Assembly: GCA_010672925.1 (NCBI GenBank)
Contig: JAAHFP010000011.1
Coordinates: forward strand, 1 to 64,000
DNA: 64,000 nt
Source of the DNA: Symploca sp. SIO1C2
GTDB taxonomy: Bacteria > Cyanobacteriota > Cyanobacteriia > Cyanobacteriales > Coleofasciculaceae
Reading direction: 5' to 3'
The notes below the pieces were generated by a model. The model was not told the origin of the DNA, did not search any database, and saw only the letters and a program-made list of their open reading frames with translations. Positions 5,964 through 57,559 of this stretch are shown here, piece after piece; the first letter of the stretch is position 1; each line of letters begins with the position of its first letter. Made by a program: the position numbers and the translations under genes.

Positions 5964-5981
5964 CACTTGTAGCAACTGAAG

Positions 5982-6238: not shown

Positions 6239-6250
6239 ATTCCCCAATTC

Positions 6251-36983: not shown

Positions 36984-37347
36984 AAGTGCGATTCGTTCAG
37001 TCGAAACCGGGAAATCGGGGGATGACTGGCTTTTACAAGGTAATCCTATTGAGGATGGAGTAAGCACTTAAATCCCTTGTAGATGACAACTTCATAACCT
37101 TGCAGGTGAGCGTAAGTATATAAGACTACGACAAGTCCTGCCCCTCAGACGCAGAGGTGAAAGCATGCTTTCACCTCTGCGTCTGAGGGGCAGGACTTGT
37201 CGTAGTCTTATATACTTACGCTCACCTGCAAGGTTATGAAGTTGTCATCTACAAGGGATTTAAGTGCTTACTCCATCCTCAATAGGATTACCCTGTAGAA
37301 GCCAGTCATCCTCCGATTTCCCGGTTTCGACTGAACGAATCGCACTT
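36984..37347. repeat. 364-bp near-perfect palindrome
   Basis: Symmetric about 37165.5 (centre AAGCATGCTT) with no loop. The inner 125-nt arms (37041-37165 and 37166-37290) are identical. Outer parts match to 36984/37347 with mismatches only at 37038/37293, 37033/37298 and 37019/37312, so 179 of 182 positions pair. Both outer ends carry the 3' end of a tnpB gene facing inward, the right one intact. The inner part is the element's right-end region in two tail-to-tail copies. Confidence 0.95.
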
Positions 37348-38603: not shown

Positions 38604-38870
38604 TTCGCGCAGCGTTGCCGAAGGCTAGGACGGGGCTTCAAACCCATTATTTTGTGAAGCATCTTAGCCGCCTGGGAGATCCTTCGCTATTGCTCATGAT
38701 GACTTAATTCCGTTAAGGTGCGTAAGTCCTACAAAATTCAAAACCTCGCTCATTTAACTAGGGCAAAAGTAACTCTAATTAACCCAACTTGTTAGTTACT
38801 GGAGTTTGCGATCACAGTCTTGAGTTTACCAAGGGACTGCCTCTTCGTCTACACCTGTTACCCTGTGTTT
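38604..38870. other. spacer with presumed IS left end
   Basis: The first ~45 bp (TAGTTCGCGCAGCGTTGCCG and GGCTAGGACGGGGCTTCAAA) look like an IS605-type left end. The rest shows no gene. Confidence 0.45.
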
Positions 38871-39923: not shown

Positions 39924-40659
39924 AGCTTAAAATTACATTCTTATCTTAAATAAACATTGGTGCAAGATTTCAGTAATACTAACAATCTCAAGTCCTGACG
40001 GATATCCCTCAATAGGAGGAAAGGAAAAAAGCTTGACTATAGATTCTTTAGACCCAACCTACAGTTTTAAAGGAAATTCATGGATATCCTAATCTTTGGT
40101 TCAACTAGTTGTGCGTTCAAACAAGACAATCAGGGTTACAAGATTATCCTTTTATAAAATAATAAATCCTACCAATCTTGGGGGAATTTGAATTATTTTT
40201 TACGTTCTCTGAGAACCGGATTTGGTATCACTGGGTAGGGTGAACGAAATTTTGGGTGGGATTTCTTGAGCTTTGTCTCCAAAAATTATCAGTTCTCCCT
40301 TCTTCCTCCGCTCCTCCGCCCCTCTGCTCCTCCGCCCCTCCGCTCCTCCGCCCCTCTGCCCCCTGACAAGGGTAGGTTTTTTACTTTCGGGTTGGGACAA
40401 GACAAGGGGGACAAGGAAGACAAGGTGACAAGGGAGTAAAACCGTACAAAATCCTGTTCGGTTCGCCAAAATTGTTGATGTTAAAAAGCCCAGTTTTTCG
40501 TACAAAATCCTCCTTGTCTACTTTCCTTCTTTCCTTCCTTGTCTCATTTTCACCTAAATATTAAAAACCTACCCTTGTGAGCCCTCCGCCCCTCCGCCCC
40601 TCTGCTCCTCCGCTCCCCACCCTTTTTTTCGCTCACCCCACTGGGTATTTCCTAAGAGC
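39924..40659. repeat. repeat-rich spacer with inverted AAAACCTACCCTTGTC pair
   Basis: No gene. At 40366-40385 GACAAGGGTAGGTTTTTTAC and at 40561-40580 its inverted form TAAAAACCTACCCTTGTGAG flank 175 bp. Outside each arm lies a CTCCGCCCCT-type tandem run (40310-40362 and 40581-40615). The inner part has GGACAAGGAAGACAAGG units and two GTACAAAATCCT copies (40442 and 40500). A third copy of the arm sequence is at 16026-16045. Open frames here are repeat artefacts. Confidence 0.7.
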
Positions 40660-41187
40660 CTAGGACTCAAATTCGGCTGCCATCGTTTGCCAAAACTGCT
40701 TGATATCTTGGCGCGATCGCAAATGGAAAACTCGTTTTGTGGCTTTAGCCTTTTCCACATAAGTCCGGTACCTGGGTGTCAACTTTGTATGACATAGCCA
40801 GACGGTGTAGTAGCTGTTCAGCGTGCTTCGCAAAAGTGGGCTGTGCTCCGGCCAACCGGCGGGGGGCACCCAAGCAGCTTTAAGAAATCGTTTTGTTACC
40901 CACCAATAATGCCGCAGCACGGGCATATCAAGATATACCAAGGTGTCAGCCACTGCCAAACGGTTCCACACTGTATCCAGGGAAACAAACCCATCGATGA
41001 TCCAGCTGTCTTGTTGCAGAAGGTTATTATGGGCGGCTTTGAACTCAGTGTGGGGGACTTCGCCGCCACCGGGCTGGTACTTCAGCAAATCAAGCGGTAT
41101 CCAGGGTAATCCGGTCATTTCAGCAAGCCGCTGGCTAAGGGTGGACTTTCCTCCGCCCGCATTACCAAATACAGCAACTTTTTTCAT
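40660..41187 (-). CDS. P-loop NTPase, adenylate-kinase-like (FlaR/topology-modulation type)
   Basis: A 175-residue small kinase-like ATPase: Walker A GNAGGGKSTLSQRLA at the N-terminus, then the substrate-side LPWIPLDLLKYQPGG and WIIDGFVSLDTVWNRLAVAD with LVYLDMPVLRHYW, followed by an arginine-rich C-terminal half. The pattern matches proteins annotated as adenylate kinases or topology-modulation FlaR-like proteins. The real substrate is unknown. It lies 19 bp after a methyltransferase on the same strand, probably in one transcript. Confidence 0.78.
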   Translation of the reverse strand: MKKVAVFGNAGGGKSTLSQRLAEMTGLPWIPLDLLKYQPGGGEVPHTEFKAAHNNLLQQDSWIIDGFVSLDTVWNRLAVADTLVYLDMPVLRHYWWVTKRFLKAAWVPPAGWPEHSPLLRSTLNSYYTVWLCHTKLTPRYRTYVEKAKATKRVFHLRSRQDIKQFWQTMAAEFES

Positions 41188-41206
41188 AGGTATTCAACAT
41201 TCAACT

Positions 41207-41854
41207 CTACTCAGCCTTCTTCGCCACGATGAACACGATTTTCGCTTTACCTATTGGCGAATTGTAATCACCCGCTTGCCATTGGCAATTAAGCGCAAAC
41301 CCCGCATCAGTCAAACTTTTCTCTAAGTCTTTTATCGTAAAGACTTTTACTAACGGAAAAAGCCCCAAGAACTTACCAATGGGTGCAATCAGCTTGAACC
41401 AAGCTATCGTATCCCCCAGGCATACTGTACTGGTGATGAAAAGTCCGCCAGGTTGGAGCATATTATAGACCTTGGCGATTACCTCTTCCTTATTGTCTAG
41501 TAGATGTAAAACATTCAGTCCCAACACAGCATCGTAAGTTCTATCGGGGACCCTCAGCTCATCAATGCTGGCTTGCTCAAAAGTGATGTTTTGGATGTTC
41601 TGGGTATCGGCTTTCCCTTGGGCAATCTCAATCATGTTTGATGAGAAATCAATGGCTTGGATATGTTGCACATAAGGGGCATGAGCAATGGCTGTCGATC
41701 CGGTTCCGCAACCAAACTCCAGGACTTCCATACTGGGTTGAAAATACTCTCGCGTAATCTGTAGTTTCTTCTGGTAGGCTGCTTCATCCGCGATAGGTTG
41801 TCTTGAATAACCTTCGGCGATTTTGTTCCAAAATTTAGCTGAAGAGTTCATCAT
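41207..41854 (-). CDS. class I SAM-dependent methyltransferase
   Basis: A 215-residue methyltransferase of the UbiE/type-11 style. Motif I is VLEFGCGTGS, followed by the acidic loop IQAIDFSSNMIEIAQ and motif post-II YDAVLGLNVLHLL, then LQPGGLFITSTVCLGD. The N-terminus FWNKIAEGYSRQP is typical of this group. The substrate is not deducible. Transcribed leftward with the P-loop gene downstream; not obviously part of the cluster that begins at 42379 on the other strand. Confidence 0.88.
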   Translation of the reverse strand: MMNSSAKFWNKIAEGYSRQPIADEAAYQKKLQITREYFQPSMEVLEFGCGTGSTAIAHAPYVQHIQAIDFSSNMIEIAQGKADTQNIQNITFEQASIDELRVPDRTYDAVLGLNVLHLLDNKEEVIAKVYNMLQPGGLFITSTVCLGDTIAWFKLIAPIGKFLGLFPLVKVFTIKDLEKSLTDAGFALNCQWQAGDYNSPIGKAKIVFIVAKKAE

Positions 41855-42378
41855 ATCCTCTTTGATTTAATTAAACGGTTTCTTCAATTTCTCGCATCTG
41901 AGGCACGTCCATAAAAATTATGCTTCCTGATTGCTTGAGTAGCTCTTGGGAGCTGGGTTACGCCACCGCAAGGCCGACCAAATGATGAATGATAAAGCTG
42001 CGATTTCTATGAACATGTGAAAGGTATCGTCAAACACTTAACCTGTAGACCTTAGAGGTGACCGATATCGGTTTTTTAAACACCACTAGTTTCAAGCATA
42101 CTACAAAAGCCACAGAGTAGTACAAAAAAACTAAAATAATTCCACCCTCGAACATTCTAAAGTCGTACAGTTCACTTTCTGTATGGATGACTGGCATACT
42201 AATAAAGAGGTAGATATTTTTCTCAATAATCCCCCTTTCTTCGCCATAATGCATCACTTGGGCATCACCATTTTGTCCAAAGTTCAATCAAAGCAGAAAT
42301 GGCTCAGATCACCCGGCGATCGCAGATCTAAATGATTTGCTGCCGGGACCCAAACCGAACACGACAGGATATAATTCA
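41855..42378. other. spacer with fragmentary small membrane ORFs
   Basis: On the leftward strand, 42030-42287 could encode an 85-residue protein with one strong hydrophobic segment (GIILVFLYYSVAFVVCLKLV). Overlapping its end, a GTG-started 38-codon frame (about 41924-42042) has a second segment (IEIAALSFIIWSALRWR). They may be one small membrane protein broken by a frameshift, or noise. Nothing else is seen. Confidence 0.35.
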
Positions 42379-42795
42379 ATGCTACTTGGCAAGTGCCTAC
42401 AGCCGCAGATCCTCGCATCCGTCTACAAGATGGGACATGGGTCGAGGATTCTTATTGCTGATGCTGGCTATCCGTGCATCACGGGTGTTCCTCCCTCAGC
42501 GGACAAGGTCTGGCTCAATCTAGCGCCTGGAAAGGTGCTCGTGACGGACGTTCTGGAAGCTCTCACGTCTGTCATACCTATTGAGAAGGCGGAGGTGATG
42601 CACCCAACTAAAGGCTTCGATCCTGAGCAAGAAGTCTTCCCCGAAATCCGAAAGCTCCTGCCCAAAGACCTGGAATTGACTAAGACCGAGAATTTCGAAT
42701 TCTATGATCGTGCACGACACAAGTATACGGCGCTCTTGATCGCCACTGGCGAGCCACGCAACTGGGCCAATCTGCTGCTCACGGTCGGGGTGTAG
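42379..42795 (+). CDS. RbsD/FucU-family mutarotase-like protein
   Basis: A 138-residue protein that aligns from MLLGKCLQPQILASVYKMGH with the RbsD/FucU family, which interconverts pyranose/furanose or anomers of ribose or fucose. The family's catalytic-type His in K-M-G-H-G, the following LIADAGYP and a conserved C-terminal region with YTALLIATGEPRNW are present. I start at ATG 42379; an upstream TTG (42337) adds 14 residues without family match. It is the first rightward gene before the NRPS (212 bp gap), suggesting that a free or phospho-sugar may belong to the pathway, but it could be unrelated. Confidence 0.8.
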   Translation: MLLGKCLQPQILASVYKMGHGSRILIADAGYPCITGVPPSADKVWLNLAPGKVLVTDVLEALTSVIPIEKAEVMHPTKGFDPEQEVFPEIRKLLPKDLELTKTENFEFYDRARHKYTALLIATGEPRNWANLLLTVGV

Positions 42796-42867
42796 CAAGG
42801 TGTTTGGGCATGGTGCACAAGTATCGTAAAAAAATGGCTTTTGATAAGTCTTTTTTTGTCTGATTTT

Positions 42868-43011
42868 ATGCAGGAGGAAGGAAGACTATTTCTGTTCCGT
42901 CTGTTCCTGATCTTAAGGGGCCACATCTTGTACTTTGTGGTCCATTTAGGTATTACAAGCATAAACTTCTTTATTTTAGGGAATGCCGCACTAATCCAGG
43001 GATTTGTATGA
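42868..43011 (+). CDS. possible 47-residue hydrophobic leader ORF coupled to NRPS
   Basis: ATG 42868 opens a 47-codon frame whose stop overlaps the NRPS start as ATGA (43008-43011). The peptide is hydrophobic (LFRLFLILRGHILYFVVHLG). Coupled overlap suggests it might be translated, but there is no homology and no strong ribosome site. It could also be chance. Confidence 0.3.
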   Translation: MQEEGRLFLFRLFLILRGHILYFVVHLGITSINFFILGNAALIQGFV

Positions 43012-46000
43012 ACGACACGAGTTTTGATTATTGGAAGCTGCAACTTGGTGATGTAGTGTTTGTACTCAACCTGCCAAGCGACAGTTCAACCTCACGCCAA
43101 CAGATCCATAAGCAACTGTCAGAAACTGAAATACTTTTTTCTGAGTCTCTTAGCCAATCACTCCAATCACTTGATGGGCTTCTAAAACCGTTTGGTCAGA
43201 GTGATAAATCGTTATTAACCATATTTTTATCTATATACAGTATTGTTTTAAATCGCTATACGAGTCAGGCAGACATTGTCATTGGGACATTGCCAATATA
43301 CGATTGTTCAACATTAGAAGATGCGGAGAGTTCTTCATCAAACAGTGTGGGTATCCGAGTTGTTCTAGATACATCAATGACGTTTCGTGAACTTCTCAAA
43401 CAGGTGCACACAACCCTTAGGCGAGCCCATGCTCACCAAGACCTCTCTTTTGATGCGTTTGCGGAAATCATATCGAGTGAACAAGGTTATCCTCCATCCA
43501 AACTTCAGGTCTTTCTGGGATTAGCAGGTTTACAGCAACAGGGTGGTTCTGATACCATAAATTCGTCTCAGTATTTGTGGAATTCTGGTGAAAAATATGA
43601 CATGGCACTATGGATTTCAGGCCATCAAACCAGACTATGTCTCCGAGCCGTTTATAACAATGCACTTTTTTCAAATGTACGAATAAAGTGCATGCTAGAT
43701 CAATTTTATAAGCTATTAGAACAAGCGATTCGTCAACCTGATGCAAGTATCGCATCCTATTCATTAATTACCCCTGAATCTAAAACACATCTGCCTGACC
43801 CTAGTCTTCCGATTTCTCCGCCTGTATATAACCTCGTCGGGCAACAGTTTCTCAAGCACGCATCTGTCCATCCAAACAACCCAGCCGTTCGGCAGTATGG
43901 CAGAAGTTGTACCTATGGTGAGCTGCGTCAGCGTGCAGAAACCGTAGCCCATCGTCTTCTGCTTGAAGGCCTTGAACGGGGTGAAGTTGTAGCGATTTAT
44001 GGGTCCCGTAGCCTTGGTCTGATTACCGGAATACTGGGGGTCATGTTAGGCGGTGGCGCGTTTCTACTGATCGATCCTAACTTTCCCTTAAAGCGCATAA
44101 AGGTCATGCTGCAACAGGCGGCTGTCAACTATGGGATTTCAATCTCCGGTTCCCCGGTTCCCGATCTGCCTGAATTCACCACGTCTCCGCTAAGCATAAA
44201 TGCCGAAAGTGGCGAAATAGAACCTTCCCACCAAACAGCAAAAGCCCACGGTCAGGTGCTTCCAGACGTGCAAGCCGACGATCCCGCCTGCGTCTTTTTT
44301 ACATCGGGAACCACAGGAACGCCAAAGGGTATTCTTAGCGATCAAAAATCTTTGGCTCACTTTCTGAGCTGGCAACGGGAGACATTTGCGATTGACTCAG
44401 CCGACCGCTGTGCCCACTTAACAGCCGTTTCCTTTGATGTCGTGCTGCGCGACATTTTTCTTCCGCTTACCAGCGGAGCGGTTTTATGCATCCCTGATGC
44501 ATTAACCATGCCTCCTGAAAAAATCCTGAATTGGCTTCAAGAGGAACAGATTACATCATTCAATATCGTACCGACACTGGCGCAATTCTGGCTCGACTAT
44601 GCTCCAGTGGGGTTTTCACTGGAGTCACTGCGATGGGTTTTCTTTGCCGGTGAGCCGCTGACTGATCGGCTCATAAATCAATGGCAGAAAACCTTTGTTG
44701 GTGGGGGACGCATTGTCAACTTTTACGGTCAAACGGAAACAGGTTTGGCGAAATGCTGCTACCAGACCTCCGAAGGCATTTACGCTGGCGTTCAACCTGT
44801 GGGGCGAGCATTGCCCTACGCGCAAGCCTTGGTTCTCTCCCCAAACGACCATCTATGTGGCGTAGGAGAGGTCGGGGAAATTGTCTTCCGTACTCCATTT
44901 ATGACGTCTGGCTACCTGAGCCAAGCTGCGGAGCGAAATAGTTTTCGTCCCAACCCGTTCACCAGCGATCCGACTGACCTGCTTTACTATACCGGCGATA
45001 TCGGACGATATCACCCCCTTGGAATTCTTGAGATTTTAGGACGGTCTGACGATCAGGTGAAAATCAGCGGTGTCCGGATCGAACCAGCGGAGACAACTGT
45101 AGTCCTGTCCAGCCATCCAGCCGTGCGAAGTTGTGTTGTTATTCCTCTTCGTTCCAAGGACCGTTTGCCTTATCTGGTGGCCTACGTCGTTCCTTCAACG
45201 TCTAAGCCTGAAAATGAATGCCGCAATGAATTGAAGGCATTTTTAACCGAACGGCTTCCTACAGCCTTTGTGCCCTCAACGTTTGTTTTTCTAACGGAAT
45301 TACCGAGGAAAGTTAATGGCAAGATTGATCGACAGGCCCTGCCGATTCCCGAGCATCAATCTGAAGTCATCGCAGATGAAGCACTTCCCCCCCGAAACCT
45401 GGCCGAGCGCCGTCTGGCTTCGATTTGGGAACGCATCCTCAACAGAAGCCCCATCAACCTTCACGATAACTTTTTCGATCTAGGTGGAACGTCTATGCAA
45501 GCGTTGTATCTAGTTGCAGAAATCGAGCGACAGTTTGGGTTAACGTTTTCCCTAGACGTTTTGATTGAATCTCCTGTGTTGGAGCAGTTAGCTGCACAAG
45601 TCGCAACTGGAGGCGTTTCCACTGGTGCCTATGTCACCTTAGTAAAAGAAGGGAAAAATCCCCCATTATTTTGTGTGTCTGGAACGGGGGGGCATGTTTT
45701 TCGACTGCGTCCCTTTGCAGTTCATCTACAAACCGATCAACCGGTTTATGGCTTACATTTTCCCGGCATTGATGGTCACGAAGAACCATGCGAGACCGTT
45801 GAAGATGTGGCGATCGCCATGCTCGAAAAGATTCGGGCAAAGCAGCCGCAAGGCCCCTATTATTTAGCTGGCTACTCCTATGGTGGGCAAATTTGTTACG
45901 AGATGGCCCAGCGGTTGACTGCGGCTGGAGAACACGTTGGCCTCCTTATCCTTCTAGATACATTTGCTCATCCTCCAATTACTGCGGATTACAATGAAAA

Positions 46001-46328
46001 ACTTTTAGCCATGATTAAAGCTGAAGAGGAAGAAGAAGTCTTTGTATTTGACCATCTCAGAAAGATTCTCGAAGCCAACCAACATGCTGAAAAAATATAT
46101 TCTCCGCCCGTGGATATTTGTGGAAAAGTAGCCTTGTTTAGAACCGATCAATCTCACGCCGTTCAAAACTCTCCGACGCTAGATTGGGCGCCTTTAGTGC
46201 CATCAGGTGTAACCATTTATCCAGTACAGGGGACCCATGACACGATGGTTGAAGACCCCTATGCCAAAGGGCTAGCGGAGAAAGTTCGCATGGCACTTTT
46301 GAAAGAGCTGAAAGGTGTAAGCGGTTAG
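43008..46328 (+). CDS. NRPS module: truncated C - A - PCP - TE
   Basis: A 1106-residue nonribosomal peptide synthetase. Residues 1-260 correspond only to the C-terminal half of a condensation domain (LLTIFLSIYSIVLNRYTSQAD, FRELLKQV); the N-terminal half with the catalytic HHxxxDG is absent, so it cannot form peptide bonds in the usual way. The adenylation domain (about 275-775) has FFTSGTTGTPKG, YGQTETG, YYTGDIGRYH and K in KVNGKID. A carrier domain follows (FFDLGGTSMQ, phosphopantetheine Ser near 820), then a type I thioesterase with GYSYGG and a C-terminal GTHDTMV. The A-domain core reads SFDVVLRDIF, placing Arg where phenylalanine-type codes have Trp239, so the substrate is unusual or unpredictable. 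One amino acid would be loaded and released by TE. Confidence 0.9.
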   Translation: MNDTSFDYWKLQLGDVVFVLNLPSDSSTSRQQIHKQLSETEILFSESLSQSLQSLDGLLKPFGQSDKSLLTIFLSIYSIVLNRYTSQADIVIGTLPIYDCSTLEDAESSSSNSVGIRVVLDTSMTFRELLKQVHTTLRRAHAHQDLSFDAFAEIISSEQGYPPSKLQVFLGLAGLQQQGGSDTINSSQYLWNSGEKYDMALWISGHQTRLCLRAVYNNALFSNVRIKCMLDQFYKLLEQAIRQPDASIASYSLITPESKTHLPDPSLPISPPVYNLVGQQFLKHASVHPNNPAVRQYGRSCTYGELRQRAETVAHRLLLEGLERGEVVAIYGSRSLGLITGILGVMLGGGAFLLIDPNFPLKRIKVMLQQAAVNYGISISGSPVPDLPEFTTSPLSINAESGEIEPSHQTAKAHGQVLPDVQADDPACVFFTSGTTGTPKGILSDQKSLAHFLSWQRETFAIDSADRCAHLTAVSFDVVLRDIFLPLTSGAVLCIPDALTMPPEKILNWLQEEQITSFNIVPTLAQFWLDYAPVGFSLESLRWVFFAGEPLTDRLINQWQKTFVGGGRIVNFYGQTETGLAKCCYQTSEGIYAGVQPVGRALPYAQALVLSPNDHLCGVGEVGEIVFRTPFMTSGYLSQAAERNSFRPNPFTSDPTDLLYYTGDIGRYHPLGILEILGRSDDQVKISGVRIEPAETTVVLSSHPAVRSCVVIPLRSKDRLPYLVAYVVPSTSKPENECRNELKAFLTERLPTAFVPSTFVFLTELPRKVNGKIDRQALPIPEHQSEVIADEALPPRNLAERRLASIWERILNRSPINLHDNFFDLGGTSMQALYLVAEIERQFGLTFSLDVLIESPVLEQLAAQVATGGVSTGAYVTLVKEGKNPPLFCVSGTGGHVFRLRPFAVHLQTDQPVYGLHFPGIDGHEEPCETVEDVAIAMLEKIRAKQPQGPYYLAGYSYGGQICYEMAQRLTAAGEHVGLLILLDTFAHPPITADYNEKLLAMIKAEEEEEVFVFDHLRKILEANQHAEKIYSPPVDICGKVALFRTDQSHAVQNSPTLDWAPLVPSGVTIYPVQGTHDTMVEDPYAKGLAEKVRMALLKELKGVSG

Positions 46329-46433
46329 ACCTTTCAATGGCTTAGCTGTACCTTGCCGCAGATGAGGTACAGCCACCAAAGTACGCCAAAAAAGTGAATT
46401 TTAGTTTAGTAGAACGTTTACGGGAGCTGATAC

Positions 46434-47147
46434 ATGCTGAAAGGCTTTGTAGATTACAATGTAGATGCAACAGTCAAATTTGGAGGAAGTTTACTAGCCG
46501 ACGAGCAAGCCTGTCGGAATACGGTTCGTGCCCTTCAATCTGCGGCGCAACAAGGAAAACGGCTCTTAGTGATACCGGGCGGTGGGCCAACCGATAATAC
46601 GATTGAAGAACTTGATGCCCGGACGCCCTTTGTTCCAGATACCCACCATCGAGCGTGCGCCCGAGCCCAAGATCAAACCGGACTGATGATTTCTGATCCG
46701 TGTTTTTCTAACAGCCTCCGAGCCATTGAAACCCTCGAGGAGATGAGACACACCTTAGATGAAGGACTCGTTCCAGTCCTCTTACCATCCCGTCTGATCT
46801 TTGATATCGATCCATTTGAGCGGACATGGGAAATCACATCTGATGCCATGGCTGTTTGGTTTGCTTGGTTGGTCCGCTGCAACTTAACGCTGATTTTGAC
46901 CAATGTTGATGGCGTTTATCGAGACGGCAAGGTTGACTCGGAAGCCCATTTTCTGCCCGAAGTCACTGCTTCTGAGTTGGCACAAATGGGCCATACCGCC
47001 GTAGATGCATGTACGCCAGCGTTCTTAGTTGAGCATGGGCTCAATTGCTGGATTCTCAATGGCAAATATCCAGACCGTATTACTCAACTTCTAGTGGATG
47101 GAATTAAGCCCGTGGGCACTTTCGTCAAAGGGGGGCAGGATGGTTAA
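46434..47147 (+). CDS. amino-acid-kinase-fold small-molecule kinase
   Basis: A 237-residue AAK-fold kinase. The nucleotide/phosphate signatures are VKFGGSLL, IPGGGPTDN, ITSDAMAVWFAW and LILTNVDGVY. The short length and the SDAMA motif resemble the UMP-kinase/MfnE/isopentenyl-phosphate-kinase side of the family, which phosphorylate phosphates, rather than aspartokinase or glutamate kinase, but this is judgement by eye. It overlaps the next gene by 8 bp (47140-47147), so the two products are translated together. Substrate unknown; presumably an intermediate of the cluster. Confidence 0.82.
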   Translation: MLKGFVDYNVDATVKFGGSLLADEQACRNTVRALQSAAQQGKRLLVIPGGGPTDNTIEELDARTPFVPDTHHRACARAQDQTGLMISDPCFSNSLRAIETLEEMRHTLDEGLVPVLLPSRLIFDIDPFERTWEITSDAMAVWFAWLVRCNLTLILTNVDGVYRDGKVDSEAHFLPEVTASELAQMGHTAVDACTPAFLVEHGLNCWILNGKYPDRITQLLVDGIKPVGTFVKGGQDG

Positions 47148-48471
47148 ACTTCTTTTCGACTCCGATGATTTGGGGCTAGTGGTATTTTCCCCAGACGCGG
47201 TCAGGAGCCAGTTGATTGGCTCGCTAGAAAGGGAAGTCGCGTCCCTAACGGGATGTGTACCGGTCTTCCGTCGGTGGTTTTGTCATACCCCTGCCAGTAT
47301 TGAAGCCTTTTACAGAGCCAGCATTCCAAACAATACTCCCCACTGGCATCTTGTTTCAGCCTTGTTTAACTCAGGTCCCTCTCTAGCCGTAATATGGCGA
47401 GGAGAAGATGCCATAGCCAAGCTAGATGCCGTAAAGGGCAGTAGCCACCCTGCCGAGGCAACGTTGCCGTCTATTCGCAGTCGGTACTGGTGCGACAATC
47501 CAGTGATGAATTTAATTCATGTCAGCGATGATCGAGAAACTGCCATCAATGAGATTGAGATTATTCAGACCTGTGCAGGAGAATTGAACCTCAATAATCA
47601 GGTGCTTGAATGTCTTCCGGACGATAACACTACAACAATGCCCCATATCGAACATTCTGGGGTTCTAGTATTTCTTCGTGTAGTGCGCTCCTTGGTTGAA
47701 TCCTATACCAATATAAGGTTAGGAACAATTGAGCTTCCTAAGGATGGTTCAGCAAAGCTGTCCCAATCTATTGCGCGAACTAAGCTGGAAAAATATGCAG
47801 ACGTCTATCCAGCTATCTCTAAATGTATTCAGCTTTTTCTAGAGGGATCATCTGATACCATTCATCACCTAGAATTCTTAGTTCCCTTAACGCCATGGGA
47901 TAAATTAGCGATTTCTTGCGGTGTTGTTGCCCGTAAAAGATGGAATCGTTCTCCGCTTTGGGAAACAATTGAAAGCATCCGTTCAATATTACCCGCAGAC
48001 CTTCAATGGATATTTAGTGGCAGTGCTGCACTGACAATGCACGGCTTTAAATGCAAGCCAAATGATATAGATATCTGGTGTTCCAAAGACGCATTTCAGG
48101 CGATCGGTAACGTACTAGGTATCGAGAAAACGCCCTATTCTGTTGCGAACTTACAGGGTGAAGTGATTAAGTGGTGGCATTGTGGGTGGGAGGTTGAGAT
48201 AGTAAGCCCTCTTATCAATGCTGAAGGAACTGTAATAGGTGTCGATGCTCAAATGCTAGCCCAGACAAATCCCAATCGACAGACTGAATCGATTGAAGAC
48301 CTAGTAGCAGAGTTATTGTTACTACGACGACCGGAACCAAAGACCGACTTAAAAAGAGCATTAAGTATACTAACAACCTTTTGGGAAAAAATTGACCATG
48401 ATTACCTGTCTTGGCGCTTAAGCGAGTGGAATGTTCCAGAAAGCTTAATAAAGCTAACTGACTCAAGGTAG
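47140..48471 (+). CDS. NDK-like domain fused to nucleotidyltransferase
   Basis: A 443-residue protein starting at ATG 47140 (GGGGGGCAGG just before it), overlapping the kinase gene. Residues 1-150 match nucleoside diphosphate kinase: FSPDAV, then FNSGPSLAVIWRGEDAI, SSHPAEATLPSIRSRY and NLIHVSDDRETA with the phospho-accepting His retained (usual NIIHGSD). Residues 300-400 are a minimal nucleotidyltransferase: IFSGSAALTMHGFKCKPN then DIDIW, i.e. the GS...DxD signature. The linker is helical. I know of no characterised protein with this order. It could make an activated triphosphate and then nucleotidylate a substrate, or act in self-protection. Confidence 0.82.
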   Translation: MVKLLFDSDDLGLVVFSPDAVRSQLIGSLEREVASLTGCVPVFRRWFCHTPASIEAFYRASIPNNTPHWHLVSALFNSGPSLAVIWRGEDAIAKLDAVKGSSHPAEATLPSIRSRYWCDNPVMNLIHVSDDRETAINEIEIIQTCAGELNLNNQVLECLPDDNTTTMPHIEHSGVLVFLRVVRSLVESYTNIRLGTIELPKDGSAKLSQSIARTKLEKYADVYPAISKCIQLFLEGSSDTIHHLEFLVPLTPWDKLAISCGVVARKRWNRSPLWETIESIRSILPADLQWIFSGSAALTMHGFKCKPNDIDIWCSKDAFQAIGNVLGIEKTPYSVANLQGEVIKWWHCGWEVEIVSPLINAEGTVIGVDAQMLAQTNPNRQTESIEDLVAELLLLRRPEPKTDLKRALSILTTFWEKIDHDYLSWRLSEWNVPESLIKLTDSR

Positions 48472-48549
48472 GATAATAAATCAGCGAGAATTTTTTCCCG
48501 TTTGCTGCCCACAAAACCTATATAAAATAGATAGTAGGAGAACCATTAA

Positions 48550-49872
48550 ATGGTTAATCAATCTTTGTTCAGAAGTGATGAAGTATCAGATATCAAGATG
48601 GTAAGGGGTGAAGGAGTATATCTTTTTGACGAGACTGGTAAAAGGTATATAGATTCAGCTGCAGGAACGTTTAATTTGTCGTTAGGATACAGTAATCAAG
48701 AAGTTATTCAAGCCGCGTTTTCCCAGGCTAATCATTTATTACATTGCACCTCTTCTTTTACGACGGATCCCATTGACAACCTGGCAGCTAAGCTTGTTGA
48801 AACAAGCCCTAGCAACTTGAAAATTGCTCATACAAAAGTGTCAAGTGGTTCTGTTGCCATTGAAGGGGCAATAAAATTAGCGCAGTATTACACGGGAAAA
48901 AAAGAGGTCATCTGCTTTCACCGATCGCATCATGGTCAAACGATTCACACGATGGCCATGTCAGGATTTAGCTTTAGAAATCAGCCCTTTCAGTTTTCTA
49001 AAGATGCAATCTATCACGTCCCATACCCCTATTACTATCAAGCCCCCAATAAAACACCAGAAGAAGTCAATAATGAGGTCCTGACCTATATTGAAGACAC
49101 GGTTAAATACTCCTCTTGTGATCAAGTGTCTGCAATTGTCATGGAGCCCATATTGGGTCTTGGCGGTAATGTAGTCCCAACCCAACAATTTTTTGTCGAT
49201 CTTAGGGAGTACTGCAACCAAAAGGGTATTGTTCTGATATTTGACGAAATTCAAACCGGTGTTGGTCGCACAGGCTGCATGTATGCGAGCGACTATTTTG
49301 GTGTACAGCCAGATATTATGGCGGTTTCTAAAGGGCTTGGCGGTACAGGCTTTCAAGTTGCGTCTATTCTCATGGAAGAGAAGTTTAATCATATGCCAGC
49401 GTACTACCACTCGTTCACGTATGGCTCAAATTTGATGAGCTGTGCTGCTGGAGTAAAAACGCTTGAGATTATTAGCCAGCCAGCATTTTTGGATAATGTT
49501 AAAGTTCAAGGGGCTTATATCCAACAAAGACTACATAGCATGAAGGATAAATATGATTTTATCGGTGATGCTAGAGGCGTTGGGCTAATGACAGGCATTG
49601 AGGTTGTGAAAGACAAGTTAAGCAGAGAGCCAGATGTCGATTTAACCAATAGGATAAAGAAAGCCGCTTTTGCCAATGGTTTGATTGTAAGAACTTCTGG
49701 CTATGGAAAAGGTAATGTTGTGAAAGTCAGACCTTCACTCAATATCACCGGTTCTAAATCAAAAGAACTCTGTGATATTTTAGACGCTACCTTAGCTGAT
49801 ATAGATTCAGGGTTGAGAGCAAAATCACCAAAACCGCAGAAGACTTTAAGTTGCTCTCAGCCATTAGTATAG
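48550..49872 (+). CDS. class III aminotransferase (PLP, acetylornithine/GABA type)
   Basis: A 440-residue PLP enzyme of the omega-aminotransferase group. Present are GVYLFDETGKRYIDSAAG at the start, the cofactor segment FHRSHHGQTIHTMAMSG, the ring-binding Asp in VLIFDEIQTGVGRTG, and the Schiff-base Lys in SKGLGG near residue 260. It ends with MTGIEVVKDK and RTSGYGKGNVVKVRPSL. Such enzymes move amino groups to or from omega positions (for example GABA, diaminobutyrate, ornithine) or sugars. It lies 78 bp after the NDK-NTase gene in the same direction. It could supply the NRPS substrate or aminate a sugar. Confidence 0.9.
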   Translation: MVNQSLFRSDEVSDIKMVRGEGVYLFDETGKRYIDSAAGTFNLSLGYSNQEVIQAAFSQANHLLHCTSSFTTDPIDNLAAKLVETSPSNLKIAHTKVSSGSVAIEGAIKLAQYYTGKKEVICFHRSHHGQTIHTMAMSGFSFRNQPFQFSKDAIYHVPYPYYYQAPNKTPEEVNNEVLTYIEDTVKYSSCDQVSAIVMEPILGLGGNVVPTQQFFVDLREYCNQKGIVLIFDEIQTGVGRTGCMYASDYFGVQPDIMAVSKGLGGTGFQVASILMEEKFNHMPAYYHSFTYGSNLMSCAAGVKTLEIISQPAFLDNVKVQGAYIQQRLHSMKDKYDFIGDARGVGLMTGIEVVKDKLSREPDVDLTNRIKKAAFANGLIVRTSGYGKGNVVKVRPSLNITGSKSKELCDILDATLADIDSGLRAKSPKPQKTLSCSQPLV

Positions 49873-50109
49873 AATGCGTAGGATGGAATGGCACTGAAAT
49901 AAGGTCGGTGGGCAATGCCCACCCTACGAAATATCCAGAGTTCTGGCAATTCAAAAATGCTTATTTCAGTGCCATTTCACCTTGCCTGTAGGGATTTGTG
50001 AAATCTTGAGCTGAGCTGAGAGTAACGGGTTCCTGGGGCGGCTTGTCGCCCCCCCAGAGAAATTCTAAAAATATTGATCTACGCTAGATAAAATTGGGGT
50101 TTGACAACA
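49873..50109. repeat. nested inverted repeat between aminotransferase and HAD genes
   Basis: GAATGGCACTGAAATAAG (about 49884-49901) is inverted at 49960-49977 (CTTATTTCAGTGCCATTTC). The 57 bp between contain a second hairpin, GTGGGCAATGCCCAC. A further hairpin GGGGCGGCTTGTCGCCCC is at about 50037. These could be a small mobile hairpin element or act as transcription attenuators in the cluster. Confidence 0.7.
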
Positions 50110-50772
50110 ATGGGGTTAGTTATTTTTGACTTAGATGAAACAATAGTCAGTCTTGATACAGATGTGGCTTGGAGTAACTATCTCCTAAAACATAAATTGG
50201 TCAAGGATATAGACTCATTTAAGCAAGAAAAAGAAGCCTACTATCGAGATTACTTGAGCGGGAGATTAGACATTCATCGATATCTTCGCGAATTTGTTTT
50301 AAAGAATCTCAAACAGCATCCTCTTGATACACTCTTTGAGTGGCGGGAACAGTATATTAAGGAGATGATTCAACCGTTTGTACTCCATAAAGCGATTGAT
50401 TGTATGCAGAAACATCGTGCGAAAGAGGACTACACGATGATCCTATCAGGAACTAACGAGTTTCTCGTGGCAGCTACAAGTGAGCTATTTCCTGTAAATT
50501 TTTGGGTGGCCACACGGTTAGAGAAAGCAGAGAATTACTTTACTGGAAATGTAGTTGGTGAGCCATTGTCTGGAATCGTTAAGTTACACTGGCTGCAAGA
50601 TTGGTTGTCAAAACATTCCGAGTTTTGCATGGAAGAAACGACCTATTACAATAACTCACATAACGATTTAACGTTTATGAGTACAGTGGGACATCCAGTG
50701 GCTGTTGACCCGGACAATAAGCTTCGAGACCATGCCGAGGCACACAAGTGGCCCATAGTCACTTTTCGGTGA
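50110..50772 (+). CDS. HAD-IB family phosphatase
   Basis: A 220-residue haloacid-dehalogenase subfamily IB protein. Motif I is VIFDLDETIV, motif II ILSGTNEF, a Lys follows, and the motif IV region is NNSHNDLTFM. The usual first Asp of that last motif (DSxND) is Asn, so one metal ligand may be missing. It ends with the group's typical GHPVAVDPDNKLRDHA and WPIVTF. HAD-IB members dephosphorylate small molecules such as phosphoserine. The start may be TTG 50101 or ATG 50110; ATG is listed. It follows the aminotransferase on the same strand and likely removes a phosphate added earlier in the pathway. Confidence 0.85.
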   Translation: MGLVIFDLDETIVSLDTDVAWSNYLLKHKLVKDIDSFKQEKEAYYRDYLSGRLDIHRYLREFVLKNLKQHPLDTLFEWREQYIKEMIQPFVLHKAIDCMQKHRAKEDYTMILSGTNEFLVAATSELFPVNFWVATRLEKAENYFTGNVVGEPLSGIVKLHWLQDWLSKHSEFCMEETTYYNNSHNDLTFMSTVGHPVAVDPDNKLRDHAEAHKWPIVTFR

Positions 50773-50778
50773 GTTGTG

Positions 50779-50919
50779 ATGCCTCTCATGGAACACATTG
50801 GTCGAAATGCAACGTATACGAAGCTGATAAATAGGCAAATTGACCAGCAGATTAAGTTATCTTGGGACGTTCTCCAAAAATCATCCATAGACAGATTACA
50901 CGATAGGAAAATTAGGTAG
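50779..50919 (+). CDS. small ORF, 46 residues
   Basis: Starts 7 bp after the HAD stop and is basic (RQIDQQIKLSWDVLQKSS). It overlaps the next small frame as TAGTG. No homology known to me. It could be a short translated linker gene or a fragment. Confidence 0.3.
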   Translation: MPLMEHIGRNATYTKLINRQIDQQIKLSWDVLQKSSIDRLHDRKIR

Positions 50920-51086
50920 TGAATAAGGTAGTAAAGAAGCTAGGTTGGTCTCTGTTTCCTCATCATTTTTTTAGAGTACATTTCCGCAATTATAAGTGGG
51001 CTAAGTGGACAGAGCGCGAGCAGGCCATTATTCCTCTTTTTCTTAGTAAGAAAACAGAATGTATTGACAAAAGTATTGTCAGTTGA
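50919..51086 (+). CDS. small ORF or truncated methyltransferase-like fragment, 55 residues
   Basis: GTG start overlapping the previous stop. The peptide (WSLFPHHFFRVHFRNYKW ... REQAIIPLFLSKKTECID) resembles the approach to the SAM site of FkbM-type methyltransferases, where a GANxG loop would follow, but it stops instead. I therefore suspect a decayed gene; the similarity is weak. Confidence 0.3.
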   Translation: MNKVVKKLGWSLFPHHFFRVHFRNYKWAKWTEREQAIIPLFLSKKTECIDKSIVS

Positions 51087-51211
51087 ACCATCAAAGGAAT
51101 TAGCCTACTCGACTGATTCGATAGGCTACTTGCTACCCGTTTGCTGAGGCTTGCTTTACTAACAAGAGTACGCTGCTGAGAACACCAATCCTAACGCTGT
51201 TACATTCCCTC

Positions 51212-52006
51212 ATGAAACCCATAGATTATCAGAGCTTTCTTTTATTTGGTGACGAACTTATTTCTCAAGCCCGTAAGCTGGTTCTATCCTTATGGGAGGA
51301 AGATAGGATTCAGGCAGATTTAAAGGTAGATACTACACCTGTTAGTGAAGTTGACCTTAGATGTGAAAAGTTCATTCGTAGCCGCATTCTAGAGCGTTTT
51401 CCAGATCATGGTGTCATCGGTGAAGAATTTGGTATCACCAACCAAGATGCAGAGTTTGTCTGGACAATTGATCCCATTGATGGAACGCAAAACTTGATCA
51501 ATCGCATTCCTACGTTTGCAACAATCTTAGGGCTTATGCATCGTCAACGTCCAGTTTTGGGTTGGATAGACCATCCAGTTTTAGGGGAGTCTCTAAAGGG
51601 CGGGATTGGTGTCGGTACGTTTCACAATGGCAAGAGGGTCTTCCTCAATGACAATCTGGAAGGGCTGACGTCAACGGATATCATCGGCACTAATTGCCCT
51701 GCGACCTTCGAGCAAGGTGATCATCTAGATGTTCTTTGGAAAATTCTAAAGTTTCATCCACAGGTCCGAATGTATTACGATGCTTATGCCCATAGCCTTG
51801 CAGTATCAGGCTCTCTTGCCGTTATGGTGGAATACAACGCCAAGATTTGGGACGTCTCAGCTACACAGGCGCTAATTGAGGGGGCTGGTGGATTTTACCG
51901 TGAGCTTGGACGAGGCTTGGATACCGGATCTAACACTTTGTTTCATGTAGCGTTTGGAAAAAAAACTATCGTCGAGCTGATGTCAAAAATGATTCTGGAG
52001 GATTGA
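51212..52006 (+). CDS. inositol-monophosphatase-family phosphatase
   Basis: A 264-residue IMPase-family enzyme of the HisN/CysQ/SuhB type. All metal motifs are intact: VSEVDLRCEKFIR, GEEFG, the signature WTIDPIDGTQNLI, and the C-terminal WDVSATQALIEGAGG. It is a Mg-dependent phosphatase for sugar-, polyol- or amino-alcohol phosphates. The cluster therefore holds two unrelated phosphatases. It could catalyse the last dephosphorylation before export by the EamA transporter, whose gene converges from the right (48-bp gap). Confidence 0.9.
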   Translation: MKPIDYQSFLLFGDELISQARKLVLSLWEEDRIQADLKVDTTPVSEVDLRCEKFIRSRILERFPDHGVIGEEFGITNQDAEFVWTIDPIDGTQNLINRIPTFATILGLMHRQRPVLGWIDHPVLGESLKGGIGVGTFHNGKRVFLNDNLEGLTSTDIIGTNCPATFEQGDHLDVLWKILKFHPQVRMYYDAYAHSLAVSGSLAVMVEYNAKIWDVSATQALIEGAGGFYRELGRGLDTGSNTLFHVAFGKKTIVELMSKMILED

Positions 52007-52053
52007 TAGATCTGTACGTGATTGCTCGTTTATCCAGCGTTTCATCAGCAGCT

Positions 52054-53052
52054 TTATCTCTCTAATTTAAGTCCAGCGTCTGCTTCAACCTGCTTTGTAG
52101 TACCTACACTAATAGCTAGACAAGTGCCAAGTAAGATGATTACAAATGCCAGGACATTAGCCAAACTCAGGGTTTCCCCAAATGCAAACCAAGCGGCGAT
52201 CCCCGTTAACATAGGATCTAATAGGCACATCAACGCTACAAACCCTGCGGATAGGTAACTAAGTGCATAGGTCTGTAAACCTCCCCCCATTAGATGACCA
52301 AGGATCGCTAGTCCTATCACAGAAAGCCATCCCTGCACAGTAGCAGGAAATAAAGGTTCATGCCACATCAGAGTTAGTAAACCTGATAAAAACAGACCTA
52401 TAGCACACTCCAAAAGGAGAATAAAGCTAGTGCTAAATTGACCACGTAGACACTCAATCGATAATAAATTAATCGTTAGAAATAAAGCAGAGCAGAGTGC
52501 CACGGCATCTCCCTGAATTTTTGTCGAGTCAAACTGAAAATCATTGAAACCCAAAACAATAGCTCCTATTGTTGCAATAGCTGTACCAAGAATGAATCGA
52601 TGGCTGAATTGAGTCTTGAACAAAAGCCATCCGCCAAATGTGGCGAATAGGGGCGTGAGGTTATGGATGAGGGAAGAATTGACAATACTCGTTTTCCTCA
52701 TTCCCCAGTAAAGTGCCCAAACATTAGCCACAAAACTTGTCGCAACAATCATCAGTAAGAAAAAAGATTTTCGATCAATATTGAACGAGGGAAGTAATCC
52801 TTTAGCTTGCTGAGTCACAGGAAGGTCAGAGTTTACCGAAAAACGGATTACTCGGACTCGGTTGATATTTTGTCCAATTTTCCAGCAGAGTAGAACAAAC
52901 GCTGCAATCCACAAGCGGTTAAACAAGGCTGCTTCTGGACTGACATCGGTTTCACACCACCTAACTAGCAGTGGTACGCCTGCATAAGCTAGAATACTCA
53001 AGGTTAGGGCAACTAGTGCCAACCGATACTTATGTGCATCATTCTGGTTCAT
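52054..53052 (-). CDS. EamA/DMT-family transporter (probable product exporter)
   Basis: A 332-residue membrane protein with about ten helices in two EamA repeats of the drug/metabolite transporter superfamily: LALVALTLSILAYAGVPLLV at the start, LVRWCETDVSPEAALFNRLW after it, and in the second repeat LALCSALFLTINLLSIE-like and LPMLTGIAAWFAFGETLSL-like segments (LLDPMLTGIAAWFAFGE seen). Family members export amino acids and small metabolites. It converges with the IMPase gene. Its place at the cluster's edge makes it the likely exporter. Confidence 0.88.
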   Translation of the reverse strand: MNQNDAHKYRLALVALTLSILAYAGVPLLVRWCETDVSPEAALFNRLWIAAFVLLCWKIGQNINRVRVIRFSVNSDLPVTQQAKGLLPSFNIDRKSFFLLMIVATSFVANVWALYWGMRKTSIVNSSLIHNLTPLFATFGGWLLFKTQFSHRFILGTAIATIGAIVLGFNDFQFDSTKIQGDAVALCSALFLTINLLSIECLRGQFSTSFILLLECAIGLFLSGLLTLMWHEPLFPATVQGWLSVIGLAILGHLMGGGLQTYALSYLSAGFVALMCLLDPMLTGIAAWFAFGETLSLANVLAFVIILLGTCLAISVGTTKQVEADAGLKLER

Positions 53053-53731
53053 AGCAAAGGCTTCTTCCGAAAAAGGGGTCTGGCAACGAAAACAACATTT
53101 GCCCTATTTTTCATCATCACGTATGAGTATTTGGATGATTATTTTAAGTTAAGTGGATAACGGAAAGGATTGTTTGGCATCACCCAACGACCATCTGACT
53201 GAACAGAGGTATTTTATAACGCCAGTATTCAATCTACCATTCCGCACCCAAAACTGTCACATAGGGGTGGAGAACAGATAAACCAAGTATTAATACTCAA
53301 TACCTCAGGGGGTGACAAGCAGGCTGAAGCCTTCAGGCAGTTAGCTTTTCATCCCCCGTTTGAAGTAGGGTAATTTCTAGGGACTAAGACTCGTTAACTT
53401 GTTGACTATATCTCGACAATAATCGATGCTTATAGTCCAATTCAGTCCATCTCTTTATAGCTAAATACCTTAAAGACACTAATTTTTATAGCTAAATACG
53501 TTAGGGAGACTAATTGAGACTATGAGGAAGAGCATTATGCCATCGCTCTAAAGTATTTCTAGATTAGAGTGTTTCACATTTTTGTTACAAAGGAAGGAGA
53601 AGAATGGCATGGAGCAGGTTTTGATAGGAATATTCAGGTCAATGGCCTGGATGATCGCTAAACCCGCCCCTACAATAGGGGTAATTCCCATTCTAAATTC
53701 TAAATTCTAAATTCTAAATTCTAAATTCCCC
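53053..53731. other. 679-bp spacer with 31-bp tandem repeat
   Basis: No gene. Two 31-bp tandem units (53454-53484 and 53485-53515) each start TTTATAGCTAAATAC and end GA(C/G)ACTAATT; they could be operator sites for the gene at 53732. A CAGGCTGAAGCCTTCAGG hairpin lies near 53318. Five TTCTAAA heptamers (53690-53725) precede the start codon. Confidence 0.6.
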
Positions 53732-56700
53732 ATGACCAATCCGGCAATCTACATCTCCCGTCAATCAGCAGAAAACTTCCTCGCCGAATTTGGCAGAACT
53801 TTCCACCAAAGCGAGGCTCAACCACTGTTGTTTCAGGTGTGGGGTATGGGAGGAGTGGGGAAATCGACATTATTGAATAAGTTGCAGGATGTTCATCAGC
53901 AGCAAGCAGATTTTGCTAAAGTTTACTTTGGCTTGACGATGGATATCGAGACGCCGATTGAGTTGATGGCAACTCTGTATCAGCAGTTCCCTCAACCTGA
54001 TATTCCTCCTTTGTTGAAACAAGATATCAGAGATTTGACGCCACCAGCAGATCCTTTTATCTCTATATACGAACAATATCAACAAACTATAGTAGCGCTA
54101 CAGACTCAACCAGTAGCAGGAAAATCGGTACAGCCGGAGCAACAAAGTGCCCTCAAAGATTTATTGGAATTGGGAACAATCACCGCTTTGTCTACTGTTG
54201 GTTCTCCGGATATGGCAGTGGGAATGTTGAGGAATGCCCCCCAAGCGATCGCTTCTGGTAAGGAAAGGGTAGAATCTCTATTACAACAGCATCCGGCTAC
54301 TAAAGGTAAACAAGATATTCAGTCATTGGTGCGGGAACCGTTACTGAGGTTAACTGAGGCATTTGTTCAAGGGTTAATTCAGAAAGCGAACCAGCGTCCG
54401 GTGGTACTATTGTTGGATACTTATGAAAAAGCCCCATCCCAGCTGGATCTGTGGTTGTGTAACTATCTACTGGGGAATAGCCAGTTACAATCTTACCCAA
54501 TTCGTCTAGTTGTAGCAGGACGACAGTCTTTGCTCAAAACTCAATATTGGCGGAAATTGCAACAAGACCGGAATTTAGTTTACCAGCAACCCTTGGAAAG
54601 ATTCGACCAACCGCAGACGAGGGAATATCTCCAGCAAATCGGTATAACTGAATCGGAGCAGGTGGAGGATATCTATCAAGTCACCAGAGGCTTACCCTAT
54701 TATCTTGATTGGATACGAAAGGAAACAGCAACGGGGCGAGAGCTAAATTTTTCCCAAGGTAACCAAGAGATTGTAGAACTGTTGCTGCAAGGACTCAATT
54801 CTACCCAAAAACAACTGTTACAGTTAGCTGCTTGTTGCCGGTGGTTTGATAAAGCTTTGATACAGCAGTTACTCAATGCCCAAAATTTAGACTTTGACTC
54901 TACTGCTGATGACACAGACAACGGCTTCGACTGGTTAACTAAGCAAGATTTTGTGGAATTGGTACAACACTGCTATCGCCTAGATGATGTAGCACGGGAT
55001 GTGTTTCGGCTATCTTTGTGGCAAGAAGATAGGGAACGGTTTTATCAAATTCATGGATTACTAGCGGACTATTTTGAAGAGTTAGCTCATCGAGAAGTTC
55101 CTCCCGATTTAGATGTAGGGGCATTTGCGCAGCATGGTGCTTTAGCAGTACAGCATTTGGGCGATAATTTATCGGAGAAACCCAAGGTATACACTCCAAA
55201 TGCTTTGCCCTCCCAGGGTTTCAACACACACCCTAGTCCCCCTATAGAACCATACAACCATCCCGACTGGTGTAGTAACACGGCAGAATACCTTTATCAT
55301 GCACTGTTTACTCACCGCCGCAATATTCAACTTACTTTTATCTCCCATCTGTTTGCTTCTCGTTATTTGGGGAAGTATGAGGTAGTAAAAATTCCCTTCC
55401 AAGCAATTAGCGCTGAAGCAGAGTTAAAAGATTACCAGCTGTTGAACTTTACCAATAGGCAGTTTCTCACCACCATTCAACCAGCTGTTGAATCTAGTTG
55501 GGAAGTATTAGTACAAGAACCAATTAATTGGGAGTCCCTGGCAAACTCTGGTTTCTCTGAGTCTCAGGTTAAGGCAGCGTTAAACAAGTGTTTTAGTTAT
55601 ACTGCTTCCTTGGATGGACTAGCAAAATTTGCCGCACTTTCATATCAATTAAGGCGTTGCCTTGAACCTCAGTGTCTAGATTGGTTACAACAAGCCAAAC
55701 TACGAGGCGAACCAATTACCACTCCTGCTGAACCAGAATTTAGCAGTAAGCTGTTTTTGTTCACTGTAGGTAATGAGTTTTATGAGCTAGGAAAAATAGA
55801 AGACGCGATCGCTCGTTATAATCAGGCTATTGAATTTAATCCTGATTATGATGCTGCCTGGTACAACCGGGGTGTTGCCCTGTATGATTTGGGAAAAATA
55901 GAAGAAGCGCTTGCTAGTTATGATCAAGCTATAGAATTTAATCCTGATTATGAACAAGCCTGGAACAACCGGGGCATTGTTCTGTATAGTTTAGGAAAAA
56001 TAGAAGAAGCGCTTGCTAGTTATGATCAAGCTATAGAATTTAATCCTACTAACGATGCCGCTTGGAACAACCGGGGTGTTGCTCTGCAAAATTTGGGAAA
56101 AATAGAAGAAGCGCTTGCTAGTTACGATCAAGCTATTGAATTTAATCCTGATTATGAGCAAGCCTGGAATAATCGGGGCAATGCTCTGTATAATTTGGGA
56201 AAAATAGAAGAAGCGATTGCTAGTTACAATCAGGCAATAGAATTCAATCCTAATAATGATGCCGCCTGGTACAACCGGGTTGTTGCCCTGCAAAATTTGG
56301 GAAAAATAGAAGAAGCAAGTGCTAGTTATGATCAGGCTATAGAATTGAAACCTAATGATGAACAAGCCTGGAACAACCAGGGGCTTGCTCTATATAATTT
56401 GGGAAAAATAGAAGAAGCGGTTGCTAGTTACGATAAAGCGATAGAACTTAAACCTGATGATGAGCAAGCCTGGTACAATCGGGGTGTTGCTCTGAAGAAT
56501 TTTGGAAGAGTAGAAGAAGCGATCGCTAGTTACAATCAGGCTATAGAACTTAAACCTAATTATGAACAAGCCTGGTACAATCGAGGTGTTGCTCTGAAGA
56601 ATTTTGGAAGAGTAGAAGAAGCGATCGCTAGTTACGATCAGGCTATAGAACTTAAACCTGACTATGATGCCGCTTGGAACAACCGGGGGCTTGCTCTGGT

Positions 56701-57256: not shown

Positions 57257-57559
57257 TAAGCGCCTAACGGCGAATTCAAAATTCAAAATTCAAAATTCAT
57301 GAATCTCCGAAAAAGAAGTCAGAAACTAGTCATATCAAGGGATTTAGTCCCAAATTTATGATTTTTAGTTTCTGAAGAGCCCTGAGGAGTGCCTTGCCCC
57401 CCAATTGAATAGCGAGAAACTAGTCATATCAAGGGATTAAGGCCAACTGTAGTTATTTTGATTTTCTCGAGAGTAATAAGTAATAAGTAAAGAGTTTATT
57501 GTTACTTTCTTTTTCGTTAATACTTACTACCTACTACCTAATACCTAATACCTAACCTA
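57257..57559. repeat. spacer with two 24-bp direct repeats
   Basis: AGAAACTAGTCATATCAAGG plus GATT occurs at 57321-57344 and 57415-57438 (94-bp period). The rest holds short ATTCAAAATTCAAAATTC units near 57275 and CTACCTAATACC units near 57530. No gene. Confidence 0.65.

Follow-up and report, generated by a model that had tools for sequence, protein, structure and literature searches.

A recurring kinase/NDK-like/nucleotidyltransferase/transaminase cassette within a strain-specific NRPS island of Symploca sp. SIO1C2

What might an NRPS and a set of phosphate-handling enzymes make together, and do their genes form one unit at all? The question arises from eight genes of Symploca sp. SIO1C2 at positions 42379-53052 of the window, the 64,000-nucleotide stretch of DNA analysed here. 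Seven of them run rightward and encode, in order, an RbsD/FucU-like mutarotase, an NRPS, an amino-acid-kinase-fold (AAK) kinase, a fusion of an NDK-like domain with a nucleotidyltransferase (NTase), a class III PLP aminotransferase, a HAD-IB phosphatase and an IMPase-family phosphatase. The eighth, for an EamA/DMT exporter (52054-53052, minus strand; PF00892), converges on them. A preliminary description had given the coordinates, order, strands and families in this form, and our open reading frames and Pfam and NCBIfam matches agree with it, the NTase half being recognised by its predicted structure. It had also taken several of the genes to be translationally coupled. The AAK stop and the fusion start do overlap by 8 bp (47140-47147), and an in-frame ATG lies upstream of that start at 47098. 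This is the sole overlap in the cluster, and "several" was an overstatement because the other same-strand gaps measure 78-439 bp (RbsD-NRPS, 212 bp; NRPS-AAK, 105 bp; fusion-transaminase, 78 bp; transaminase-HAD, 237 bp; HAD-IMPase, 439 bp).

We compared the DNA of window positions 38800-58600 with seven genomes from the same family, two of which are from the same genus. Both flanks match, and among the matches listed for these genomes none covers the stretch from about 41859 to 53614. Since the flanks match the congeners and this stretch does not, the whole cluster is strain-specific; the island (41859-53614) has edges that fit the cluster coordinates given above, and the pieces that flank it lie on separate contigs in the congeners. 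Samples of 386, 391 and 390 cyanobacterial genomes, which may overlap, hold no other cyanobacterial copy of the AAK or of the full-length fusion, and the many matches in one of these samples are house-keeping NDKs. Viral contigs gave no match, and neither did a genome scan with the fusion as query; that scan requires near-exact peptides, and alignment of the AAK did find relatives. Outside the island, an IS200/IS605-type TnpB-like gene, recognised by eye, lies upstream at 37306-38445, and a short repeat upstream of a TPR gene (53684-53733) recurs dozens of times in genomes from this family.

The AAK kinase (46434-47147, plus strand; PF00696) has as its best NCBIfam match MfnE, the [5-(aminomethyl)furan-3-yl]methyl phosphate kinase of the methanofuran pathway. 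It scores 118.8 bits against this model (equivalog cut-off 300, not reached) and 32.5 bits against that of archaeal UMP kinase, and it shares the ITSD, DVDG.Y and NG stretches with MfnE. AAK-family members like UMP kinase and MfnE transfer a phosphate onto an existing phosphate group, and the substrate of MfnE is an amine-bearing phosphate ester produced by a transaminase. The best match among solved structures is 7qrh, annotated merely as an aspartate/glutamate/uridylate kinase. AAKs of homologous cassettes are 37-57% identical to the window enzyme and come from Ruminococcus, Bacillaceae, Inquilinus, many rhizobia and MAGs of a small phylum; those on rhizobial and Acinetobacter plasmids are 38-48% identical. 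A tree places the nearest kin of the window AAK without strong support, and by identity the closest is that of MAG YF1.bin133.

Directly overlapping the kinase gene, the fusion gene (47140-48471, plus strand; PF00334) encodes a protein whose AlphaFold model has a pLDDT of 84 and matches NDK structures in Foldseek with a TM score of about 0.8 by target. The NDK-like domain, delimited by alignments and Foldseek, spans fusion residues 13-141 (47176-47562, plus strand). It keeps the catalytic residues His127 and Asn124, within an N-L-I-H motif, and Arg113, the TIR arginine, and all three are invariant in alignments of 12-13 relatives. The lysine of the KPDG motif is lost (SPDA in the window, [SG]P[DE]x in the relatives), and so is the nucleotide-contact stretch RPFF, which reads PHWHL in the window and is gone in all aligned relatives; cyanobacterial house-keeping NDKs have both. 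The domain scores under every NCBIfam NDK cut-off. Loss of the lysine and of RPFF in a family that keeps the histidine, asparagine and arginine fits an altered substrate, and the loss of the lysine could also mean weak or different chemistry.

The NTase half (47959-48468, plus strand) carries the motif GS...NDIDI...GWEVEIV and gives a weak Pfam match to DUF7277, below the cut-off. Modelled alone, the C-terminal 170 residues reach a pLDDT of 89.5, and Foldseek matches the model to the TM1012 NTase, to MenT1 and to the lincosamide adenylyltransferase LnuA. The glycine, serine, two aspartates and glutamate of the signature (GS, DxD and a third acidic residue) are invariant in five relatives. Together with the Pol-beta-like fold of the model, they assign this half to the NTase superfamily as a predicted member. 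A protein search of plasmids with the NTase half gave no match, and profile comparison of the cyanobacterial-type with the rhizobial NTases gave no significant one; the rhizobial NTase referred to below is identified by motif and position only. NDKs act on diphosphates, which they phosphorylate; the substrate of nucleotidyltransferases is a triphosphate.

The fourth member of what we call the core cassette (46434-49872) is the class III aminotransferase (48550-49872, plus strand; PF00202, 303.9 bits). It is 50-52% identical to the transaminases of the Ruminococcus (52%), Lysinibacillus and Virgibacillus cassettes. A palindromic 17-bp sequence, GGTGGGCAATGCCCACC (49907-49923), occurs between the transaminase and HAD genes as a single site in the window.

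The remaining genes are members of the set by virtue of their position in the island, from which we also infer their putative roles. The NRPS (43008-46328, plus strand; 1106 aa) opens with the C-terminal portion of a condensation domain (profile positions 196-455 of 456); the N-terminal half is missing, and no HHxxxD motif occurs anywhere in the protein. The A, PCP and TE domains have a complete set of motifs: SGTTG, YGQTE, NGKID, GGTS, GYSYG and GTH. Motif reading and alignment to LgrA give DVRNFAFLAK as the pocket letters of the A domain. Arg239 and Asn278 in this pocket resemble the aminoadipate code, and an anionic side chain on the substrate would be our guess for that reason. The histidinol-phosphatase-like HAD enzyme (50110-50772, plus strand) scores above the cut-off of TIGR01490 and below that of NF052360 (200.7 bits; cut-off 280), and the HisN-like IMPase-family enzyme (51212-52006, plus strand; PF00459) stays below that of TIGR02067 (168.8 bits; cut-off 275.15). 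The RbsD/FucU-like gene (42379-42795, plus strand; 138 aa; PF05025, 97.6 bits) falls short of both NCBIfam equivalog cut-offs. Its GC content is 0.54 and its GC3 0.63, against a GC3 of 0.37-0.45 in the other seven genes, and its membership in the pathway is doubtful.

To see which of these genes travel together, we examined the neighbourhoods of the AAK in 46 relative loci, many of which are near-identical Mesorhizobium loci. In 38 of the 46, the AAK has an NDK-like gene no more than 6 kb away; most have a class III or DegT transaminase next to the AAK, and most, like the window, combine the AAK with an adjacent NDK-like gene, NTase and transaminase. The four occur together in rhizobia, Inquilinus, an Acinetobacter plasmid, Bacillaceae, Ruminococcus and the small MAG phylum. 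This makes at least six lineages, some loci having separate genes and others the same NDK-NTase fusion. Recurrence across phyla argues for more than chance. The preliminary description had suggested a gene-neighbourhood search for homologues occurring together; such loci exist, and its claim of novelty survives this check. Its phosphate-kinase/NDK/nucleotidyltransferase logic corresponds to a true recurring cassette in which the NDK-like and NTase parts keep their catalytic residues.

The arrangement varies between lineages. MAG YF1.bin133 has the AAK, fusion and class III transaminase in the order of the window, without an NRPS or phosphatase and without biosynthetic neighbours, between pilus and glycine-cleavage genes (neighbours judged by eye). 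Ruminococcus has the AAK, the fusion, a glycosyltransferase, the transaminase and a MATE-like transporter, the last recognised by eye, and Virgibacillus and a relative have an NTase (NTP_transf_5), NDK, AAK and transaminase. Rhizobia have a DegT transaminase, AAK and NDK together with either an NTase, a methyltransferase/class III transaminase fusion and a GMC oxidoreductase, or a methyltransferase and NTase. Occurrence is sporadic, at 3 of 200 genomes of the Lysinibacillus order, 1 of 245 of the Ruminococcus order and 3 of 30 of the MAG phylum. In Acinetobacter apis and A. boissieri (L047, L049) an AAK of the same family has no NDK, NTase or transaminase nearby, and some rhizobia also carry a lone AAK.

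Homologues of the window RbsD, NRPS, HAD, IMPase and EamA genes were considered as cassette members elsewhere and rejected, none lying within 6 kb of the AAK in any of the 46 relative loci. As no relative has these outer genes nearby, the whole cluster is unique among the genomes searched. The sugar- or nucleoside-linked product envisaged in the preliminary description, unlike the core logic, stays hypothetical: RbsD deviates in GC3 and is absent near the cassette in relatives. The self-protected intermediates that it also envisaged are a possibility.

Several relative loci have further neighbours. In rhizobia the AAK loci are carried by symbiotic plasmids, and several are near nif genes; L033, L038 and L040 are on Sinorhizobium and Roseibium plasmids, and L034, L036 and L041 are on rhizobial plasmids with nif genes. 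Some adjoin genes for a Ugp-like ABC importer, a phosphodiesterase and an RpiR regulator, much as in opine-type loci whose product is made and reimported. A PEP-mutase-family gene lies near the AAK in some Rhizobium loci: R. mayense has the full EDK.....NS signature, and the three such genes located here are at L073 12300-13211 (full, EDKLFPKRNS), L041 12955-13818 (DDK) and L037 10890-11747 (a degenerate EGN form). On plasmid p12SAAs474 of Acinetobacter sp. SAAs474 (L035), the NDK-NTase fusion, AAK and DegT transaminase share a mixed cluster with a split transketolase, two D-Ala-D-Ala-ligase-like genes, AMP-binding and carrier proteins and a thymidylate-kinase-like gene, which looks like an unstudied biosynthetic cluster. 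In the Bacillaceae locus L087, a 769-aa protein with no Pfam match (4971-7280) is encoded directly 3' of the cassette transaminase. In Symploca itself the PEP-mutase signature EDKxxxxxNS is absent from the cluster and from the genome (assembly about 98% complete), and on this ground we ruled out a phosphonate cluster for the window; the single PEP-mutase-family member of the genome is of the isocitrate-lyase type (EDQ..KRCGH) and lies on another contig.

As to step order, substrate, product and the roles of all genes outside the core, we infer the following. We lean, tentatively and at rather less than even confidence, towards a dedicated activate-and-transfer cassette that takes an aminated phosphate ester to a triphosphate and then transfers it. 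The class III transaminase would aminate a small phosphate ester (X-P), the MfnE-like AAK would convert X-P to X-PP, and the NDK-like domain, via its histidine, would convert X-PP to X-PPP. With X-PPP as donor, the fused NTase would release PPi and join X-phosphate to an acceptor through a phosphodiester or similar link. In Symploca the A-PCP-TE NRPS may activate an amino acid that serves as acceptor or partner; phosphates would be trimmed by the HAD and IMPase enzymes, and the EamA protein would export the product.

Among the readings considered, this relay is the simplest one that uses all four constant members. It is supported by the AAK, whose bit score for MfnE far exceeds that for UMP kinase, by the transaminase adjoining it, by the joint occurrence of the core in at least six lineages, by the intact NTase motifs and fold and, as a hint, by Arg239 and Asn278 in the A-domain pocket. 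An MfnE score well below the curated cut-off, the genomes with an AAK alone and the lack of a significant profile match between the window and rhizobial NTases count against it. A small molecule rather than a nucleotide is favoured as the triphosphate because the nucleotide contacts of the NDK-like domain are changed and the AAK is MfnE-like. We know of no citable precedent for a non-nucleoside triphosphate as the donor of an NTase. The wider proposal, possible but doubtful, is that of a widespread, undescribed cassette in which an aminated phosphate ester becomes a non-nucleoside organic triphosphate for an NTase-fold enzyme to consume, a cassette that Symploca has joined to an NRPS and that rhizobia carry on symbiotic plasmids.

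The same enzymes could instead serve a nucleotide, the AAK (NMP to NDP) and the NDK-like domain (NDP to NTP) renewing one that the NTase attaches to an intermediate as a handle; we consider this the main rival, possible, if questionable. Tethering of this kind is known for FR-900098 and phosphinothricin. It has been proposed for AlpM in argolaphos, whose cluster (alp) in Streptomyces monomycini combines the NDK-like AlpE (291 aa), the NTase AlpM and a transaminase, with a proposed cytidylyl activation of aminomethylphosphonate (PMC8976061). The AAK fold is common to UMP kinase, and the three activities are encoded together in the window, overlapping or fused. However, no AAK is listed for argolaphos, the window AAK scores far better with MfnE than with archaeal UMP kinase, and the NDK-like family has lost the nucleotide-contact motifs. 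House-keeping kinases already renew nucleotides, and the Pfam matches of the window cluster include no releasing enzyme of the NUDIX type.

That the island contains two unrelated adjoining units, an ancient, mobile cassette of AAK, NDK, NTase and transaminase genes next to a separate small NRPS that has scavenged accessory genes, with no single product between them, is unlikely in our view. The outer genes are in no relative, the composition of RbsD differs and the HAD gene is flanked by the two widest gaps (237 and 439 bp), all as expected of two units; yet a single island that the congeners lack contains all eight genes, seven in the same direction, and NRPS-type genes also occur near the Acinetobacter SAAs474 cassette. 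Self-protection appears distinctly improbable. Here the AAK and NDK-like domain would phosphorylate, and the NTase nucleotidylate, a finished toxic product (compare FomA/FomB and LnuA), to be freed by the HAD and IMPase enzymes near export. LnuA is indeed among the NTase fold matches, and the island has two phosphatases and an exporter, but the cassettes of relatives are without homologues of the window phosphatases, exporter and NRPS, that of MAG YF1.bin133 has no biosynthetic neighbours, and the transaminase, which is the constant partner, belongs to biosynthesis. We regard the recurring cassette inside a unique island as genuine and the activate-and-transfer mechanism as plausible.

Conservation of a phosphate kinase/NDK-like/nucleotidyltransferase relay with a transaminase in several phyla suggests that small-molecule biosynthesis uses an activation strategy not recognised so far. 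Judged by the open-access literature, in which we found no description of the AAK/NDK/NTase set, and by general knowledge, the four-enzyme cassette appears to be undescribed. If the proposal holds, an AAK with ACARAQDQ or ACALAQDQ beside an NDK-like gene would be a genome-mining handle for a family of phosphorus-containing metabolites, and the product of the symbiotic-plasmid copies in rhizobia becomes a testable question.

Known systems share single elements with the cassette. The methanofuran pathway has the AAK-fold kinase MfnE and is not known to include an NDK or NTase partner; Pfam finds no MfnB- or MfnF-like genes in the window cluster. The fosfomycin kinases FomA and FomB pair an AAK-type kinase with a second step that phosphorylates a phosphorus acid again, whereas the Symploca cluster has no phosphonate genes and its second kinase is NDK-like, not FomB. 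Canonical NDKs (PF00334) share the fold and the catalytic histidine, asparagine and arginine with the window domain, which differs in its C-terminal extension and in the lost KPDG lysine and RPFF. TM1012, MenT1 and LnuA share the fold and GS...DxD...E with the window NTase at 11-19% identity in structural alignment, but only the window NTase is fused to an NDK-like domain. Argolaphos, the sole partial parallel and the closest described set found, has an NTase and an NDK-like protein in one cluster as the window does, a likeness drawn from gene descriptions only; it is a phosphonate pathway with a PEP mutase and no listed AAK or NRPS, and it seems a partial precedent only, sharing part of the logic. 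If the preferred reading is correct, the cassette would run parallel to NTP-based activation, with a small molecule in the nucleotide's part.
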